Assembly (NCBI GenBank): GCA_017432615.1 | Contig: JAFRIV010000022.1 | Coordinates: forward strand, 1 to 43,889 | Length of the DNA stretch: 43,889 bases | Direction: 5' to 3' | Source: Oscillospiraceae bacterium | GTDB taxonomy: Bacteria > Bacillota > Clostridia > Oscillospirales > Oscillospiraceae | In this document: positions 3,913 to 20,848 of the stretch, one piece after another | Position numbering within the stretch: the first letter of the stretch is position 1 | Layout: every line of letters starts with the position of its first letter | The notes under the pieces: model-generated | Told to the model about the DNA's origin: nothing | The model's input: the letters and a program-made list of their open reading frames with translations, nothing else | Database searches by the model: none | Position numbers and translations under genes: made by a program

Positions 3913-4332
3913 GAATACCAGCAGCTTGCTGAAAACGTAGTTGCCCACGATCACCGCAATGTTGGACAGGACAGTTGCCGCATAGACGTTGATGCCCAGC
4001 ACATTTCCCAGCAGCTGCATCAGAACGATATCGAGGATCCAGGTCGCGATCCTGGACGCCACAAATCCGGAGGCTTCTTTGAAGATCTCCGGGTTTTTGC
4101 TTTGAAACACCCATCTGCGGTTTACGGGATAGGCAAAAGCCACACCGGCGATCCAGCTCACGGTGCTCAGGATCAGGTTCTGCAGATTGGTCGGGTGCGG
4201 GGTGCCGGCATAGAAGAGAAAGTTCCACAGGAATTTCACACCCCAGGCCACAATGGTCGTCAGCACGCCGACGATCCCGTATACGATGATCTCCCTGTAT
4301 TTGACCAGGAGCTCTTTGATTTTATCGATCAT
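3895..4332 (-). CDS. GtrA-family membrane protein
   Basis: 145 aa with four predicted membrane helices, the size and layout of GtrA/GtcA/YngA proteins, which are thought to flip undecaprenyl-phosphate-linked sugars across the cytoplasmic membrane. Visible family features are an early YGIVGVLTTIVAW helix, an internal NRRWVF (F/Q)xS stretch after the second helix, and a C-terminal NYVFSKLLVF segment. The start codon overlaps the end of the upstream GT2 gene by 11 nt, which indicates tight co-translation with its presumed partner. It is the last gene of the minus-strand operon. Confidence 0.88.
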   Translation of the reverse strand: MIDKIKELLVKYREIIVYGIVGVLTTIVAWGVKFLWNFLFYAGTPHPTNLQNLILSTVSWIAGVAFAYPVNRRWVFQSKNPEIFKEASGFVASRIATWILDIVLMQLLGNVLGINVYAATVLSNIAVIVGNYVFSKLLVFKKGQQ

Positions 4333-5251
4333 TTCTGTTTCCTCCGCATTCTTCCGAGATGATGTACCGCGGCCGGCCTTTCAGCTCTTCATACATTTTC
4401 CCGATGTAATAGGCGATCACGCCCAGACTCAGCATGACCAGGCTTCCGGTAAACAGCAGCAGCAGGATCACCGTGGTGAAGCCTTCCGCCGCCTGCCCGC
4501 TGAGTTTCTGCACCAGCGTGATCAGAGAGAAGATCACCGCGATGGCCAACATCAGGATCCCCAGCAGGGTGATGCTGTGCAGCGGCACGGCCGAGAAGGA
4601 GGTGATGTTGGTGATGGCGTAACGGATCAGCGCCCGGGTGGACCATTTGCTTTCTCCCACGGTGCGCTCCTGTACGCGGTAAGTGACTTCCGTTTTCTTA
4701 TAACCGACCCAGTAGCTCAGCGCCCGGAAGAACACGTTGCGCTCCGGCATGGCGTTGAGCGTGTCCACTACCTTGCGGTCCAGCAGCTTGAAGTCAGACG
4801 CGGAGGACATATCCCAGCCCACCGCCCGGCTGATCAGGGCGTAGAAGCTTTTTGCGGCAAAGCGGTGTGCACCGGTCTCCTCGCCGCGGTCTTCCTTGAT
4901 GCCCTCCACCACTTCGTAGCCCTGCTCCCACAGGCGCACCATCTCCACGATCTTCTCGGGCGGGTGCTGCAGGTCGCAGTCGATGACGACGCAGCAGTCT
5001 CCCCGTGCCTTTTCAAGTCCGGCAAACATGGCCGCTTCCTTGCCGAAGTTTCGGCTGAAGTGGATGCCGCGCACGTTGTCGTCACGCGCGGATGCCGCCT
5101 GTATCTCCTGCCAGGTGGCGTCGGTCGAGCCGTCGTCTATGAACAGCAGTTCGTAAGGGATCGCTTCCCTTTGCAGGATGCCGGCAATGGTCTCTGCCGT
5201 CTGCCGGATCATTTTTTCTTCCCTGAAGGCAGGGATGATCACTGAAATCAT
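4322..5251 (-). CDS. GT2 glycosyltransferase, GtrB/CsbB-like
   Basis: 309 aa. The N-terminal GT-A catalytic domain (about 1-225) shows the GT2 signatures: SVIIPAFREE at the start, DDGSTDATW (residues 40-48) and the DCDLQHPPE metal/nucleotide-sugar site (about 92-100). Two C-terminal hydrophobic hairpins (about 230-255 and 262-290) anchor it in the membrane. This is the layout of GtrB, CsbB and dolichol-phosphate-mannose-synthase-like enzymes, which transfer a sugar from UDP or GDP to undecaprenyl phosphate on the cytoplasmic face. It sits between a GT-C gene (5-nt gap) and gtrA (11-nt overlap), so it is the donor-making step of a three-component glycosylation set. The sugar cannot be predicted. 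Confidence 0.9.
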   Translation of the reverse strand: MISVIIPAFREEKMIRQTAETIAGILQREAIPYELLFIDDGSTDATWQEIQAASARDDNVRGIHFSRNFGKEAAMFAGLEKARGDCCVVIDCDLQHPPEKIVEMVRLWEQGYEVVEGIKEDRGEETGAHRFAAKSFYALISRAVGWDMSSASDFKLLDRKVVDTLNAMPERNVFFRALSYWVGYKKTEVTYRVQERTVGESKWSTRALIRYAITNITSFSAVPLHSITLLGILMLAIAVIFSLITLVQKLSGQAAEGFTTVILLLLFTGSLVMLSLGVIAYYIGKMYEELKGRPRYIISEECGGNRNDR

Positions 5252-5256
5252 AGCTG

Positions 5257-6864
5257 TTATCTCCTCACAAGATAGGTTACGCTCAGCCCGCCGAGGCCGT
5301 CGAGGTCATACCGGTAGAGCAGTTCCCGGCTCTGTACGCCGGCATCCTTTTCCAGAAGCGCCAGCATTTCTTCCTCATCGTATCCGCTGGACCAGAAGGG
5401 GCCGGTGTCGATATACACAACGACCTCCTCCGCATCTCCCAGATACTCCAGCAGTTCAGGGGAGGCGGTGCTGCCCGTGATAAAAAAGCTTTCAAACTGC
5501 CGCAGCTGCAGCAGATCCTGGGTCTCCGGGGCATAGTAGCCATCGGTCAGATAAATGCATTTGTCTCCGGTGTAGGGCGCAATGGCTTCGTCATATCGCC
5601 GCATCTCCGGGAAGAGATTGTCCGGCGGAGCCTGGCGGACACTGAAAAGGGCGGCGCACAGGCACAGTGCCGCTGCGGCGTATTCCCGTACGGCACGCCC
5701 GGGGAGATCTTCCGCAGCCCGGAAAAGCGCGGCCAGCAGCCAGCCTGCAGCCAGTGCAGGGAAGGGCCCCAGATTATAGAGATACCGGAATTCCCGTACC
5801 GGAGAGAGGATGGCGACTGCCGCAAAAGCGGGCAGCACCGGTACGAGCAGGGTCAGTACGTCGAAAGAGATCCCCTTGCCCTTCCCGCCGCGCAGCAGGC
5901 GCGGCAGAAGCAGCAGAAGCAGCACAAGCGCGCCGAACAGCACCCATTTAACGGCGGCCATCTGCTGCAGTGCCTGCAGGAAATACCGGATACGGGGGAG
6001 ATACTGGGCAGTGTTCTTTAAATTATCCGTCACGCTTGTCCCGCCCACGACCTCTCCGTTGCCGCGAAAGATCTGATGCAGGCAGGCGGGGAAAAGCACC
6101 ACCGCCAGCGCCACCCCTGCCAGGGCGGCAAGGCTGAAGCGCACGAAGGCGCGGAGATCCTTCCGGCACAGCAGCACGAGATCCACCGCCACACATAGGA
6201 AAAACGCATAAAACACGAAGTAATACTGGGTCAGAAGCCCCGACAGAAGCACGGCCGTGACGGAAACGGCTCCGCCGCGCCTGTCGGGCATGCGCAGAAA
6301 CTGCAGGCAGCGCAGGGCGAAAAGAACGGTGAGAAACGTCAGCATCATGTACATGCGGATCATCATCCCGTCGGAGATCGCGAGGCGGCTCAGACCGTAC
6401 AGCCCCGCCGCGGAAGCTGCGGCTGCAGTGTTGTCAAAGGCGAGCAGTGCCAGGCGGTAGAGCACCAGAAGTGTCAGCAGGTAGAAGCAGAGATTGATGC
6501 CCAGCCCGATCCACTTGGAGCAGCTGCCCCGAAACACCGACGAGACCAGATGGACAAGTTCATAATAGAGAGGGGGATGCACATCCCGCGTCTGGTTGTA
6601 GTAGACCGAAGCGAAGGAAAACCCGTCGTCCCGGACGGTCAGGTAATCCTCGGCCTCCGAGCGGGTGAAAAGCACATCGTGCAGATCCCCGCCTTTCACA
6701 TCGTAGAGAAAGGGGGCATAGGCACTGTTGGACAGACCGTAGGTATACACCTCGTCGACGAACAGCCCCGTCTTGCGCATGCCGAACAGACAGAAAACGC
6801 CTGCGCACAGCACGAGCACCAGTGCAAGAGCTCCGTATTTTTTTAGAAAAGAGCGATCATTCAT
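5257..6864 (-). CDS. GT-C membrane glycosyltransferase (GT39/ArnT-like)
   Basis: 535 aa with about ten membrane helices over residues 10-420 and a C-terminal non-membrane domain (about 425-535). Soon after the first helix is FVDEVYTYG, the acidic D-E motif in the first outer loop typical of GT-C enzymes that use polyprenyl-phosphate sugars. It would transfer the lipid-linked sugar made by the GT2 protein and flipped by GtrA onto an outer acceptor such as a wall polymer, lipid or protein; the acceptor is not known. The start overlaps the lgt stop by 8 nt. The DNA is very GC rich here (42 of 60 bases on line 6061-6120). It could also be called a YfhO-like or DUF-type integral membrane protein; family placement is moderate. 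Confidence 0.8.
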   Translation of the reverse strand: MNDRSFLKKYGALALVLVLCAGVFCLFGMRKTGLFVDEVYTYGLSNSAYAPFLYDVKGGDLHDVLFTRSEAEDYLTVRDDGFSFASVYYNQTRDVHPPLYYELVHLVSSVFRGSCSKWIGLGINLCFYLLTLLVLYRLALLAFDNTAAAASAAGLYGLSRLAISDGMMIRMYMMLTFLTVLFALRCLQFLRMPDRRGGAVSVTAVLLSGLLTQYYFVFYAFFLCVAVDLVLLCRKDLRAFVRFSLAALAGVALAVVLFPACLHQIFRGNGEVVGGTSVTDNLKNTAQYLPRIRYFLQALQQMAAVKWVLFGALVLLLLLLPRLLRGGKGKGISFDVLTLLVPVLPAFAAVAILSPVREFRYLYNLGPFPALAAGWLLAALFRAAEDLPGRAVREYAAAALCLCAALFSVRQAPPDNLFPEMRRYDEAIAPYTGDKCIYLTDGYYAPETQDLLQLRQFESFFITGSTASPELLEYLGDAEEVVVYIDTGPFWSSGYDEEEMLALLEKDAGVQSRELLYRYDLDGLGGLSVTYLVRR

Positions 6865-18125: not shown

Positions 18126-19244
18126 ATGACAAAGACAGATATATTTTCTGGATTTCTGGGAGCGGGAAAGACCACATTGATCCGTAAACTGATAGCGGAA
18201 GCCTATAAGGGTGAGAAGCTGGTCCTGATTGAAAACGAGTTTGGAGATATTGCTATCGACGGTGGTTTTCTGAAGGATGCCGGTGTAGAGATCACTGAGA
18301 TGAACTCCGGCTGTATATGCTGTACGCTGGTCGGGGACTTCCGTAAAGCCCTGCAGCAGGTTGTTGAAACCTACACGCCTGATCGCATCGTAATAGAGCC
18401 TTCCGGTGTGGGAAAACTCTCAGATGTGGCCAAGGCTGTCAGCTCTGTTGATGGCATTGAAATCGGTGCAAAGGTAACGGTTGTCGATGCTTCCAAGTGC
18501 AGGATGTATATGCGCAATTTTGGTGAATTTTTTAATGATCAGGTTATTCATGCAGACCTGATTGTCCTCAGCCGTACAGACACCGGGAATGATGCAAAAA
18601 CACTGGAGGCAGTAGAGATGCTGCGTACACTGAATCCTGACTGCGGGATGATCACGACTCCCTGGGATCAGATCTCCGGAGAACAGATTCGCACTGCCAT
18701 GGAAGAAAACGGGCTGAAGCATGCCATGGAAGAACTTGCCCATGAGCATGCTCATGCTCATGACGAAGAGGAATGTGACGATCCGGAGTGCTCCTGCCAT
18801 CATCACCATCATCATGACGATGACGATGAAGATGAGCACGAGCACGAGCACCATCACCATCATCATGACGATGAAGACGAAGATGAGCACGAGCATCACC
18901 ATCATCATGACGATGAAGAAGAGGGTGAGCATGAACATGAGCATCATCACCATCATCACCACGCAGATGAAATCTTTGATTCTTTCGGCATGGAAACACC
19001 GCGGAAATTTACCTCTGATGAGATCTCAGCCATTCTTGATAAGCTTTCCGATGAGGCAAAATACGGCATTATTTTGCGTGCCAAAGGCTTCGTAAACGGA
19101 AAAGACGGCCAGTGGATTTATTTTGACTATGTGCCGGAAGAGAAGAATATCCGAATTGGAGCACCTGCTGTTACAGGCCGATTCTGTGTGATCGGTTCAA
19201 AGATTGATCATTCTGCCCTGAAGGAGCTGTTCAGCCTTGAATGA
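18126..19244 (+). CDS. CobW/G3E GTPase with His-rich metal-binding insert
   Basis: 372 aa. G3E GTPases of the CobW/ZNG1/YciC type use GTP to load a metal (often zinc) into client proteins. Visible motifs: Walker A GFLGAGKT (residues 9-16), the metal-binding CxCC as GCICC (62-66), the EPSG Walker-B/switch motif, and SRTD for guanine recognition. Residues about 206-279 are a long insert of His, Asp and Glu runs plus CDDPECSC, arranged as about three repeats, expected to buffer Zn, Co or Ni. The CobW C-terminal domain follows (about 285-372). The start is ATG at 18126 after GAAGG. The stop overlaps the next gene by 8 nt, so the two are translationally coupled. The actual metal is not determined by sequence. 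Confidence 0.9.
   Translation: MTKTDIFSGFLGAGKTTLIRKLIAEAYKGEKLVLIENEFGDIAIDGGFLKDAGVEITEMNSGCICCTLVGDFRKALQQVVETYTPDRIVIEPSGVGKLSDVAKAVSSVDGIEIGAKVTVVDASKCRMYMRNFGEFFNDQVIHADLIVLSRTDTGNDAKTLEAVEMLRTLNPDCGMITTPWDQISGEQIRTAMEENGLKHAMEELAHEHAHAHDEEECDDPECSCHHHHHHDDDDEDEHEHEHHHHHHDDEDEDEHEHHHHHDDEEEGEHEHEHHHHHHHADEIFDSFGMETPRKFTSDEISAILDKLSDEAKYGIILRAKGFVNGKDGQWIYFDYVPEEKNIRIGAPAVTGRFCVIGSKIDHSALKELFSLE
18741..18962 (+). repeat. His/Asp/Glu-coding tandem repeat within cobW gene
   Basis: Repeats of CATCACCATCATCATGACGA-type units alternating with GATGAAGA and GAGCACGAG units code for poly-His blocks separated by acidic blocks. Three His6-7 blocks are visible near 18798-18815, 18850-18866 and 18942-18962, with a shorter His5 block near 18895-18909. 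Such DNA can vary in length by slippage. Confidence 0.8.
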
Positions 19245-20190
19245 AGTAAAAGATTTCCCGGTCTACCTGTTTACGGGATTCCTGGAGGCGGGGAAGACTC
19301 GCTTTATTCAGGAGACGTTGGAAGATAAGCGGTTCTGTAACGGAGAAAAAACGCTTCTTCTTGTCTGTGAAGAGGGTGAAGAGGAATATGAACCGGATCA
19401 GTTTGCCGACCGCAGTGTCACCATTCGCACTGTTGGGGACATCTCTGATCTGACCCGGGCCAATCTTTTAAAATGGCAGAAGGAAACGCGTGCTGAGCGC
19501 TGTGTGCTGGAGTATAACGGCATGTGGATGCTGGACGATCTTTACAGTGCTATGCCGGATGACTGGGCGGTCTATCAGGAGTTTATGTTTGCCGATGCGG
19601 GTACATTTCTTACCTACAACGCGAATATGCGGCAGTTGGTCTACGATAAGTTGAAAAGCTGTGAGCTTGTGGTATTCAACCGCTTTCTGCCGTCAATGGA
19701 TAAGATGGAATTCCACAAGATCGTACGCGGGGCTTCTCGCCGTGCAGACATTGCCTATGAAGATCCCAAAGGCAATGTGGTGTATGATGACATTGAAGAT
19801 CCGCTTCCCTTTGATCTTGAAGCACCGGTCGTAGAGATCGGAGATGAAGATTATGCACTGTGGTACCGTGATATGACGGAAGAACCCGAAAAATATGAAA
19901 ACAAGACAGTTTCATTTACCTGCCGGGCACTGCGCCGTGAACGAATCCCCAAAGGGAGTATGGTTGTCGGCCGCCATGTGATGACCTGCTGTGCAGCTGA
20001 TATTCAGTTTGCTGCTCTTGTCTGTCAGATCAAAGATGCATCGAATATTCCGGACAACACATGGATCCGCCTTACCGCAAAGATCAACTTCCGCTTCCAT
20101 ATGGCTTATAAGCGTAAAGGTCCTGTGCTCTCGTATATTTCCCATACAGCTGTTCCGGCACCGGATCCAGAAGTTGCCACTTTTTATTGA
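19237..20190 (+). CDS. Diverged G3E GTPase-like protein with YcgQ-type C-terminal domain
   Basis: 317 aa. The N-terminal part is G3E-like: GFLEAGKT Walker A (about residues 13-20) and an EYNG motif where EPSG is expected. The CxCC metal motif is absent and the guanine-recognition motif is altered (FNRF), so GTP hydrolysis may be weak or lost. From about residue 222 the sequence resembles the C-terminal domain of YcgQ/TIGR03943 (DUF1980) proteins: YENKTVSFTCRA, a VVGRHVMTCCAAD motif with C251 and C252, then DNTWIRLTAKI. That domain is normally paired with a membrane permease and often with CobW proteins in metal-related loci. The TTG start at 19237 is supported by AAGGAG (19221-19226), 10 nt upstream; no ATG in frame fits. 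It overlaps the first GTPase gene by 8 nt. The fusion is assigned by eye. Confidence 0.75.
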   Translation: MNEVKDFPVYLFTGFLEAGKTRFIQETLEDKRFCNGEKTLLLVCEEGEEEYEPDQFADRSVTIRTVGDISDLTRANLLKWQKETRAERCVLEYNGMWMLDDLYSAMPDDWAVYQEFMFADAGTFLTYNANMRQLVYDKLKSCELVVFNRFLPSMDKMEFHKIVRGASRRADIAYEDPKGNVVYDDIEDPLPFDLEAPVVEIGDEDYALWYRDMTEEPEKYENKTVSFTCRALRRERIPKGSMVVGRHVMTCCAADIQFAALVCQIKDASNIPDNTWIRLTAKINFRFHMAYKRKGPVLSYISHTAVPAPDPEVATFY

Positions 20191-20197
20191 GCGGCTT

Positions 20198-20848
20198 ATG
20201 AAATACAAATGTCTGGTTTGGGATCACGATGATACGACCGTCAACAGTACGGCCACGATTCACCACCCGGCTTTTTTGGAGTTTTTGAAGGTCTATTATC
20301 CTGATCGCACCTGCTCGTTGGAAGAATATTTCCTGAAAAACTTTTCTCCCGGCTTTATAGAAATGTGTCGGGAGGAATATGGCATGACGGACGAGCAGCT
20401 GGATCTGGAAGTGCAGTTTTGGCTGGATTATGTCAAAAATCATATTCCGGTGGCGTATCCCGGCATCCGCGAGATAATGGTCCGCCAGAAAGCAGAGGGT
20501 GGAAAGGTCTGTGTAATTTCCCACTCTATGAAATACAACATTCTGCGGGATTTTAAAGCCAATGGTTTGCCGGAACCGGATCTGGTCTACGGCTGGGAAG
20601 AGCCGCCCGAACATCGCAAACCGAATGCCTGGCCGATGGAACAGTTGCTTGAAAAGTTTTCTCTTCAGCCGTCGGAAGTTCTGATGATCGATGATTTGAA
20701 ACCTGGATATGATATGGCCCGAGAAGTCGGAGTGGATTTTGCAGCCGTCGGCTGGTCGAATGATATCCCGGAGATTGAATCCTTTATGCGTTCCAACTGC
20801 CGTTATTATTTTAAAACGGTGGAAGAATTAGCGGCATTTGTACAGTAG
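20198..20848 (+). CDS. HAD-superfamily phosphatase
   Basis: 216 aa. Haloacid dehalogenase fold hydrolase: motif I is DHDDT (residues 9-13), the D-x-D-x-T nucleophile loop; motif II/III region contains VISHSMKYN and K at HRKPNAWP; motif IV is MIDDLKPGYDMA. The cap insert is helical, as in phosphoglycolate-phosphatase-like members, so a small phosphorylated metabolite is the likely substrate. The open frame runs upstream into the preceding GTPase gene, but ATG at 20198 lies 7 nt after that stop and begins exactly at the HAD core, so it is chosen. It is probably the third gene of the cassette. Its link to metal handling is by position only. Confidence 0.82.
   Translation: MKYKCLVWDHDDTTVNSTATIHHPAFLEFLKVYYPDRTCSLEEYFLKNFSPGFIEMCREEYGMTDEQLDLEVQFWLDYVKNHIPVAYPGIREIMVRQKAEGGKVCVISHSMKYNILRDFKANGLPEPDLVYGWEEPPEHRKPNAWPMEQLLEKFSLQPSEVLMIDDLKPGYDMAREVGVDFAAVGWSNDIPEIESFMRSNCRYYFKTVEELAAFVQ

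Follow-up and report, generated by a model that had tools for sequence, protein, structure and literature searches.

GTPases of the COG0523/CobW type, such as YjiA, YciC/ZagA and CobW, belong to the G3E proteins. As described in passages of PMC9164220, COG0523 proteins are characterised by a CxCC motif and typically consist of a G domain and a variable C-terminal domain, and HypB is shown there as a dimer. According to passages of PMC8000910, many COG0523 proteins are regulated by Zur. The YcgQ/TIGR03943/ScfB proteins are the partners of the permease YcgR/ScfA. In passages of PMC5584981, ScfA and ScfB, corresponding to YcgR and YcgQ, are described as membrane proteins of unknown function and as fitness factors in group A Streptococcus, and a Staphylococcus aureus lipoprotein with DUF1980 appears in a list in PMC5020093.

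The locus described here lies in a stretch of 43,889 nucleotides from an Oscillospiraceae bacterium, below called the window, and encodes the proteins A and B. A resembles the COG0523/CobW-type proteins in its G3E fold and P-loop, but it lacks CxCC, NKxD and CobW_C and has CEEG, ExNGMW and a DUF1980_C arm instead; B is a member of that family by its Pfam domains and its CxCC. With YcgQ, A has in common the DUF1980_C domain with a CCxxD motif, but not the N-terminal membrane part or an adjoining ArsP_1/COG0701-type permease, and the TIGR03943 model matches A at 80.1 bits, under its equivalog cut-off of 88.8.

Proteins A and B of the window

The features of the two genes are as follows.

18126..19244, + strand: protein B, a CxCC-bearing CobW/COG0523 GTPase of 372 aa, with CobW_C at aa 284-369 (Pfam)
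18150..18173, + strand: Walker A motif of B, GFLGAGKT
18312..18323, + strand: CICC of B (the CxCC motif), aa 63-66
18738..18968, + strand: His/Asp/Glu-rich segment of B, about aa 205-281, between the G domain and CobW_C (by eye from the translation)
19237..19244, + strand: 8-nt overlap between the stop of B and the TTG start of A
19237..20190, + strand: protein A, 317 aa, TTG start, a G3E domain without CxCC joined to DUF1980_C
19255..19761, + strand: N-domain of A, about aa 7-175, which in other Clostridia also fronts ArsP_1 permeases
19276..19299, + strand: Walker A motif of A, GFLEAGKT, aa 14-21
19366..19377, + strand: CEEG of A, aa 44-47, where B has NEFG
19510..19527, + strand: EYNGMW of A, aa 92-97, where B has EPSGVG (alignment)
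19675..19683, + strand: FNR of A, aa 147-149, at the G4 (NKxD) position
19822..20166, + strand: DUF1980_C (PF21537) of A, aa 196-310, probably an OB fold
19969..20001, + strand: GRHVMTCCAAD of A, aa 245-255, a candidate metal or redox site (conservation)

An earlier note on this DNA had read the frame of A as a G3E-like domain joined to a DUF1980-type tail, and both halves are borne out by the comparisons. The C-part matches PF21537 (E 7.2e-23 for the whole protein and 1.3e-23 for residues 190-317 alone), far above the cut-off. The note had allowed that residues 220-317 might match another family; DUF1980_C was found there, and CobW_C gives no match in A, which rules out CobW_C as the identity of the C-part. 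For the N-part, PF02492 (cobW) scores 16.8 bits in the whole protein and 18.9 bits when the part is taken alone, against a cut-off of 20.7, and its gathering score is reached by seven of the eight A relatives scanned, the locus L032 being without a match. When the profiles of the N-domain and of the B family are aligned by hhalign, the result is 99.8% and E 5.9e-30. An AlphaFold2 model of A built from 53 sequences has a mean pLDDT of 89.4 and a pTM of 0.64, and its top solved structures in Foldseek are YjiA (1nij, E 8.5e-6) and then HypB 2hf8. By this profile-profile comparison and the predicted structure the N-part, which could have failed to match G3E, is a G3E domain. The model also matches small subunits of the CST complex (7uy5_J, E 9.2e-4; 8d0b_C, E 1.3e-3 and TM 0.62, normalised by target length), chains that we take to be OB folds. 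The Foldseek table is without ranges, and these matches are taken to cover the C-part of A.

Relatives of A were collected in two sets. A scan of named genome records gave 136, of which 80 with 52-81% identity were kept (loci L032-L111), and a further 20 more distant loci (L150-L169) were taken from the 57 A-type matches found at class level. GKT, ExNG and GRxxMxCCxxD are invariant among the 53 A-type sequences aligned, out of 81; so are the residues E92, N94, G95 and W97 of A, and the P-loop is intact in all 53. The CxCC motif, reported as missing from A, is absent from all 37 N-domains aligned, which retain the P-loop, have a CEEG-like motif where B has NEFG, and have ExNG (37/37) where B has EPSG. 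The altered guanine motif likewise stands: A has FNRF at G4, and NKxD has mostly decayed in the N-domains, with NKTD retained in perm_L172. The CCxxD of the C-part is kept in all 80 relatives of the first set and all 20 of the second, where the preceding G and M are not, as well as in 16 of 16 permease-linked YcgQ proteins, but in none of four short permease-less DUF1980_C proteins. None of the 81 A-type proteins has a transmembrane segment (no 19-residue Kyte-Doolittle window above 1.6). The 136 relatives and the invariant motifs rule out that A is a chance reading frame or a broken gene, and PADLOC gave no match for A or B, which rules out a defence system.

B carries all the COG0523 domains, namely cobW (PF02492, E 8.7e-40), CxCC and CobW_C (PF07683, E 3.2e-6). 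CICC and EPSGV are present in each of 17 B-type proteins compared, 14 of which have LSR at G4; the B of the window has LSRTD there.

Distribution of A and constancy of its pairing with B

A match to A was found in 37 of 60 genomes searched, the source genome counted in, and the joining of the two domains, which the earlier note had proposed to seek elsewhere, is seen in the 80 relatives kept. The note had also described A as coupled to a full CobW GTPase. In the window this tight coupling is the 8-nt overlap with the frame 18126-19244, and B lies upstream of A in 76 of the 80 relatives, with A starting 1, 3, 268 and 509 bp from the contig edge in the four others. Of these 76, 63 have B and A spaced by -30 to 60 nt, with an overlap in 36; the remaining 13 include eight Ruminococcus loci where the genes are 0.8-1.6 kb apart.

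The DUF1980_C family occurs in 93 of the 293 genomes of a class survey. Among the matches listed, 51 of the 57 class-level A-type matches have B within 4 kb, and of the six that do not, three are near contig ends and three are second copies, two of them without an adjoining CobW gene and one with a different CobW. In G172, one of the genomes with A near a contig end, no B-type match was found anywhere. When it comes to B-type matches above 280 bits, an N-domain protein is found within 4 kb in at least 61 of 63; in the two exceptions, G170 and G337, B and A are on different contigs and A is 355 and 484 bp from the end. At 200-280 bits such a protein is nearby in 7 of 13, and at 130-200 bits in 1 of 12, among the matches listed. 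Of 398 genomes drawn from across the phylum, 11 had an N-domain match at E 1e-30, three of them outside the class. The near-constant pairing fits the earlier proposal, derived from sequence, that A and B may form a two-subunit machine with A as a regulatory or docking partner.

Several neighbouring genes may be mentioned. A HAD-family hydrolase is encoded just 3' of A (20198-20848), and a homologous cluster is found downstream in 19 of the 80 loci. Six loci have a protein of about 422 aa between B and A; the one at L106 4629-5897 matched no Pfam family at E 0.001. At L157 2074-3237 the place of B is taken by a CobW of another kind, which groups apart from B. The B-less second A copies of L161 and L162 are followed downstream by a protein whose linker is rich in His and Cys (L161 4210-5124; L162 4500-5423). 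It has the Pfam domains Nitro_FeMo-Co and FKBP_C in L161 and is similar in appearance in L162, and it gives an orphan A copy a neighbour with a link to metals. The source genome also encodes a cobW-domain protein of 353 aa to which CobW_C was not matched (L192 1486-2547), directly after a 347-aa gene that presumably specifies an XdhC/CoxI-type factor.

Permease operons carrying the N-domain of A

Twenty loci with non-fused DUF1980_C proteins of the YcgQ type (L170-L189) were chosen mostly from the top rows of the class search. An ArsP_1 permease adjoins YcgQ in 16 of them, and in 12 of these 16 the permease is fronted by the N-domain of A (HMM E 2e-8 to 7e-39); in all 12, ArsP_1 and cobW are both above the Pfam cut-off. 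Eleven of the 12 have B as the gene immediately before the fused one, and the four plain permease-YcgQ loci all lack B. The order B - [N-domain-permease] - YcgQ is thus found in L170, L172, L174, L176-L180 and L182-L184, with L185 being without B; five of the 12 loci (L170, L174, L178, L180, L184) belong to one genus code. At class level 76 N-domain matches were counted among those listed, 57 joined to DUF1980_C, 15 to a permease and 4 alone, with the architectures judged by frame length and with B itself and a broken fragment (G326:C5, 142 aa) left out; the N-domain-permease of G265:C3 is not among the matches listed, and these counts are incomplete. Each of the four stand-alone genes (G119, G202, G270, G315) adjoins an ArsP_1 gene.

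The presence of the N-domain as the N-terminus of ArsP_1 permeases is a new observation. It had been missed in the earlier interpretation, which otherwise holds for the domains, the loss of CxCC, the guanine motif and the coupling to CobW. No name was found for the operons, and neither the fusion of the N-domain with DUF1980_C nor that with a permease was found described in the literature searched, which consisted of titles, abstract openings and some passages and was partly swamped by unrelated words. The words permease, fused, fusion, COG0701 and COG3689 are all absent from the main text of PMC2770081, which deals with COG0523 and zinc.

Since the N-domain is carried by the permease in 12 of 16 loci, the two halves of A correspond to the N-end of the permease and the C-end of YcgQ. 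The operons and the A/B pair have the N-domain, the DUF1980_C group and the B subfamily in common, but the operons are membrane-bound while A has neither the permease part nor a membrane anchor. Nor is a permease encoded next to A, as the permease HMM gave no match in L032-L111 or L150-L169, which rules out an adjoining one in these loci. A simple hydropathy scan finds three hydrophobic segments in 13 of the 16 YcgQ proteins, the remaining three having four, two and one, and three segments combined with positive-inside reasoning would place the C-domain outside the membrane. For ScfB two membrane segments are predicted in a passage of PMC5584981, which would place the C-domain inside. The C-domain is probably outside the membrane in YcgQ and inside the cell in A, and its role may therefore not carry over from one to the other. 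The short DUF1980_C proteins of L186-L189 (frames of 152-224 aa) have one hydrophobic segment and have lost the CC motif, and neither a permease nor B was matched in their fetched flanks. In L182 a second kind of CobW GTPase, grouping apart from B, follows the permease-YcgQ pair (4262-5365).

A tree built from 57 G domains unites the A-type and permease-type domains against CobW (100/99), and in it the A-type N-domains form one clade (99/99) placed among the permease types. Constraining the permease types to a single group costs 21.8 log units with an AU p of 0.12 for all rows, and the nesting of A inside the permease forms is thus not firm; p is 0.0075 when six rows dropped after inspection of the tree are left out (five flagged as long, four permease and one CobW, together with perm_L179). 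For the DUF1980_C domains, a tree with 45 members and the short proteins as root unites the fused domains (99/99) and joins them to the YcgQ of the N-domain-permease loci (92/87), with the YcgQ of plain permeases outside. Both trees group A with the N-domain-permease operons, with which it has a common ancestry. A therefore seems to have arisen once, by the joining of the soluble end of a permease to that of its YcgQ partner, with the membrane segments gone. It is simplest to assume a single fusion in which the membrane parts were lost, a direction that is favoured but not proven.

The permease operons differ from the A/B loci in their neighbours. With HMMs built from the same loci that were afterwards counted, the fetched flanks gave a Fur-family gene at 7 of the 12 N-domain-permease loci (from 4 of 8 genus codes) and at no plain locus of the four, and znuA together with znuB at 3 of the 12; a ZnuA gene follows one plain permease-YcgQ pair (L173). 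Pfam backs all seven Fur genes, ZnuA and ZnuB (ABC-3) of L176, L179 and L182, and ZnuA of L173. Fur, ZnuA and ZnuB gave no match in the A/B loci L032-L111, 45 of which have at least 4 kb on both sides, or in L150-L169. The Fur family likewise gave no match in the source genome, which is 87% complete; a Fur-family match occurs in 16 of 37 genomes of the genus, the source genome included (many incomplete, and one of the 16 below the cut-off).

A 19-bp palindrome, AATGCAAATnATTTGCATT, lies upstream of some N-domain-permease operons. With up to four mismatches, 8 of its 12 matches in L170-L189 are near starts of system genes where 0.67 are expected, four of these eight being in L179 and some overlapping. 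In L150-L169 it is 2 of 8 matches where 0.4 are expected, and both lie just before the B-less second A copies of L161 and L162, the only A loci with the palindrome near a start. None of 60 shuffled palindromes reached the total of 10, the highest giving 5. The palindrome was chosen by eye from L174, L176 and L179, so only L171, L173, L161 and L162 are independent, and the last two are near-copies of one genus code. In its form with a one-base spacer it is absent from the window, and it is near no start in L032-L111. It may represent a Zur operator. Upstream of B, TATAAT-like boxes were seen by eye in several relatives, and inverted repeats with exact arms of 7-8 were found neither in the window nor in nine of ten relatives printed, L077 having some. 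The A/B pair may be constitutively expressed. Rfam gave no match at gathering score in the window and only a tRNA in 15 loci, which rules out a riboswitch. The window has no tRNA gene.

Proposed function and alternative readings

The interpretation that we are somewhat inclined to accept is that A and B constitute a cytosolic, GTP-driven metal chaperone of two subunits, derived from a membrane system. The membrane form would comprise a COG0523 protein B with CxCC, a membrane-anchored YcgQ, and a CxCC-less G3E domain either fused to an ArsP_1-type permease or encoded next to one; in the window form the CxCC-less G3E domain would be joined directly to the C-domain of YcgQ with the membrane segments absent. 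B would load a divalent metal, most likely zinc, on its CxCC by use of the His-rich loop, and would pair with the G domain of A in the manner of G3E proteins. GTP turnover in B would then shift the metal to or from the CC/D site of A, from which a client would receive it. Given the HypB dimer and the CxCC of COG0523, it is natural to suppose that a subunit with CxCC pairs with one that lacks it, but this is a guess and not a result. The parts of this proposal differ in strength. A is likely to be a partner of B, and the pair is just as likely to handle a transition metal. That this metal is zinc is only slightly favoured, from the Fur-family and znu genes beside the permease versions, and metal binding at the CC/D site of A falls a little short of an even bet.

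A could instead be an autonomous G3E chaperone in which DUF1980_C has replaced CobW_C for the recognition of clients, with B as a paralogue that happens to share the operon. The P-loop intact in all 53 sequences would agree with this, as would the G domain with variable C-terminal domain typical of COG0523 proteins (described in passages of PMC9164220) and the existence of second copies without B in L161 and L162. We nevertheless consider it rather improbable, as the CxCC is gone from every aligned N-domain, G4 is changed, A almost always occurs with B, and high-scoring B proteins among the matches listed occur with an N-domain protein. It is less probable still that the system has nothing to do with metals, the G3E pair serving as a switch for some other process and the C-domain binding a cofactor or nucleic acid. 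Foldseek does liken the C-domain to small subunits of the telomere-binding CST complex, metG is upstream of the pair in the window and in 13 of the 80 loci, and no metal genes were found beside the A/B pair; B, however, has a CxCC and a His-rich loop, and znu and Fur genes adjoin the membrane form.

Least probable, and in our opinion very unlikely, is that A docks to and regulates a permease encoded elsewhere, as the fused N-domain may do. The N-domain does occur on permeases, and the source genome contains one ArsP_1 gene, but this permease of 303 aa is encoded on another contig, is without the N-domain and is unlinked to A. Moreover, among the matches listed, ArsP_1 is absent from 40 of 54 genomes with the architecture of A and present in 127 of 239 others (Fisher p 0.0003, which is only a guide since the genomes are related). 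A thus occurs in genomes without such a permease, and probably needs none.

If the two-subunit chaperone is the correct reading, the cysteine-bearing domain of A lies within the cell, whereas in its relatives this domain is probably on the outer side of the membrane. Three arrangements of common parts link the COG0523 GTPases with the YcgQ/YcgR family, and the link bears on two questions, namely with which clients and partners most COG0523 GTPases work, and what the function is of YcgQ/YcgR, which as ScfB/ScfA matter for infection by group A Streptococcus. Three predictions follow: B docks to the CxCC-less G3E domain as its partner; the permease-YcgQ pair is concerned with the handling of a metal, perhaps zinc; and the central part of the system is accessible in soluble form through the two proteins of the window, with no need for a membrane. 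It is possible, though we hold it more tentatively than the parts above, that a membrane metal-transport complex was once turned into a soluble G3E heterodimer that now would serve as a permease-free metal allocator in many Clostridia, and that the N-domain would be a dedicated docking module coupling COG0523 GTPases to transporters.
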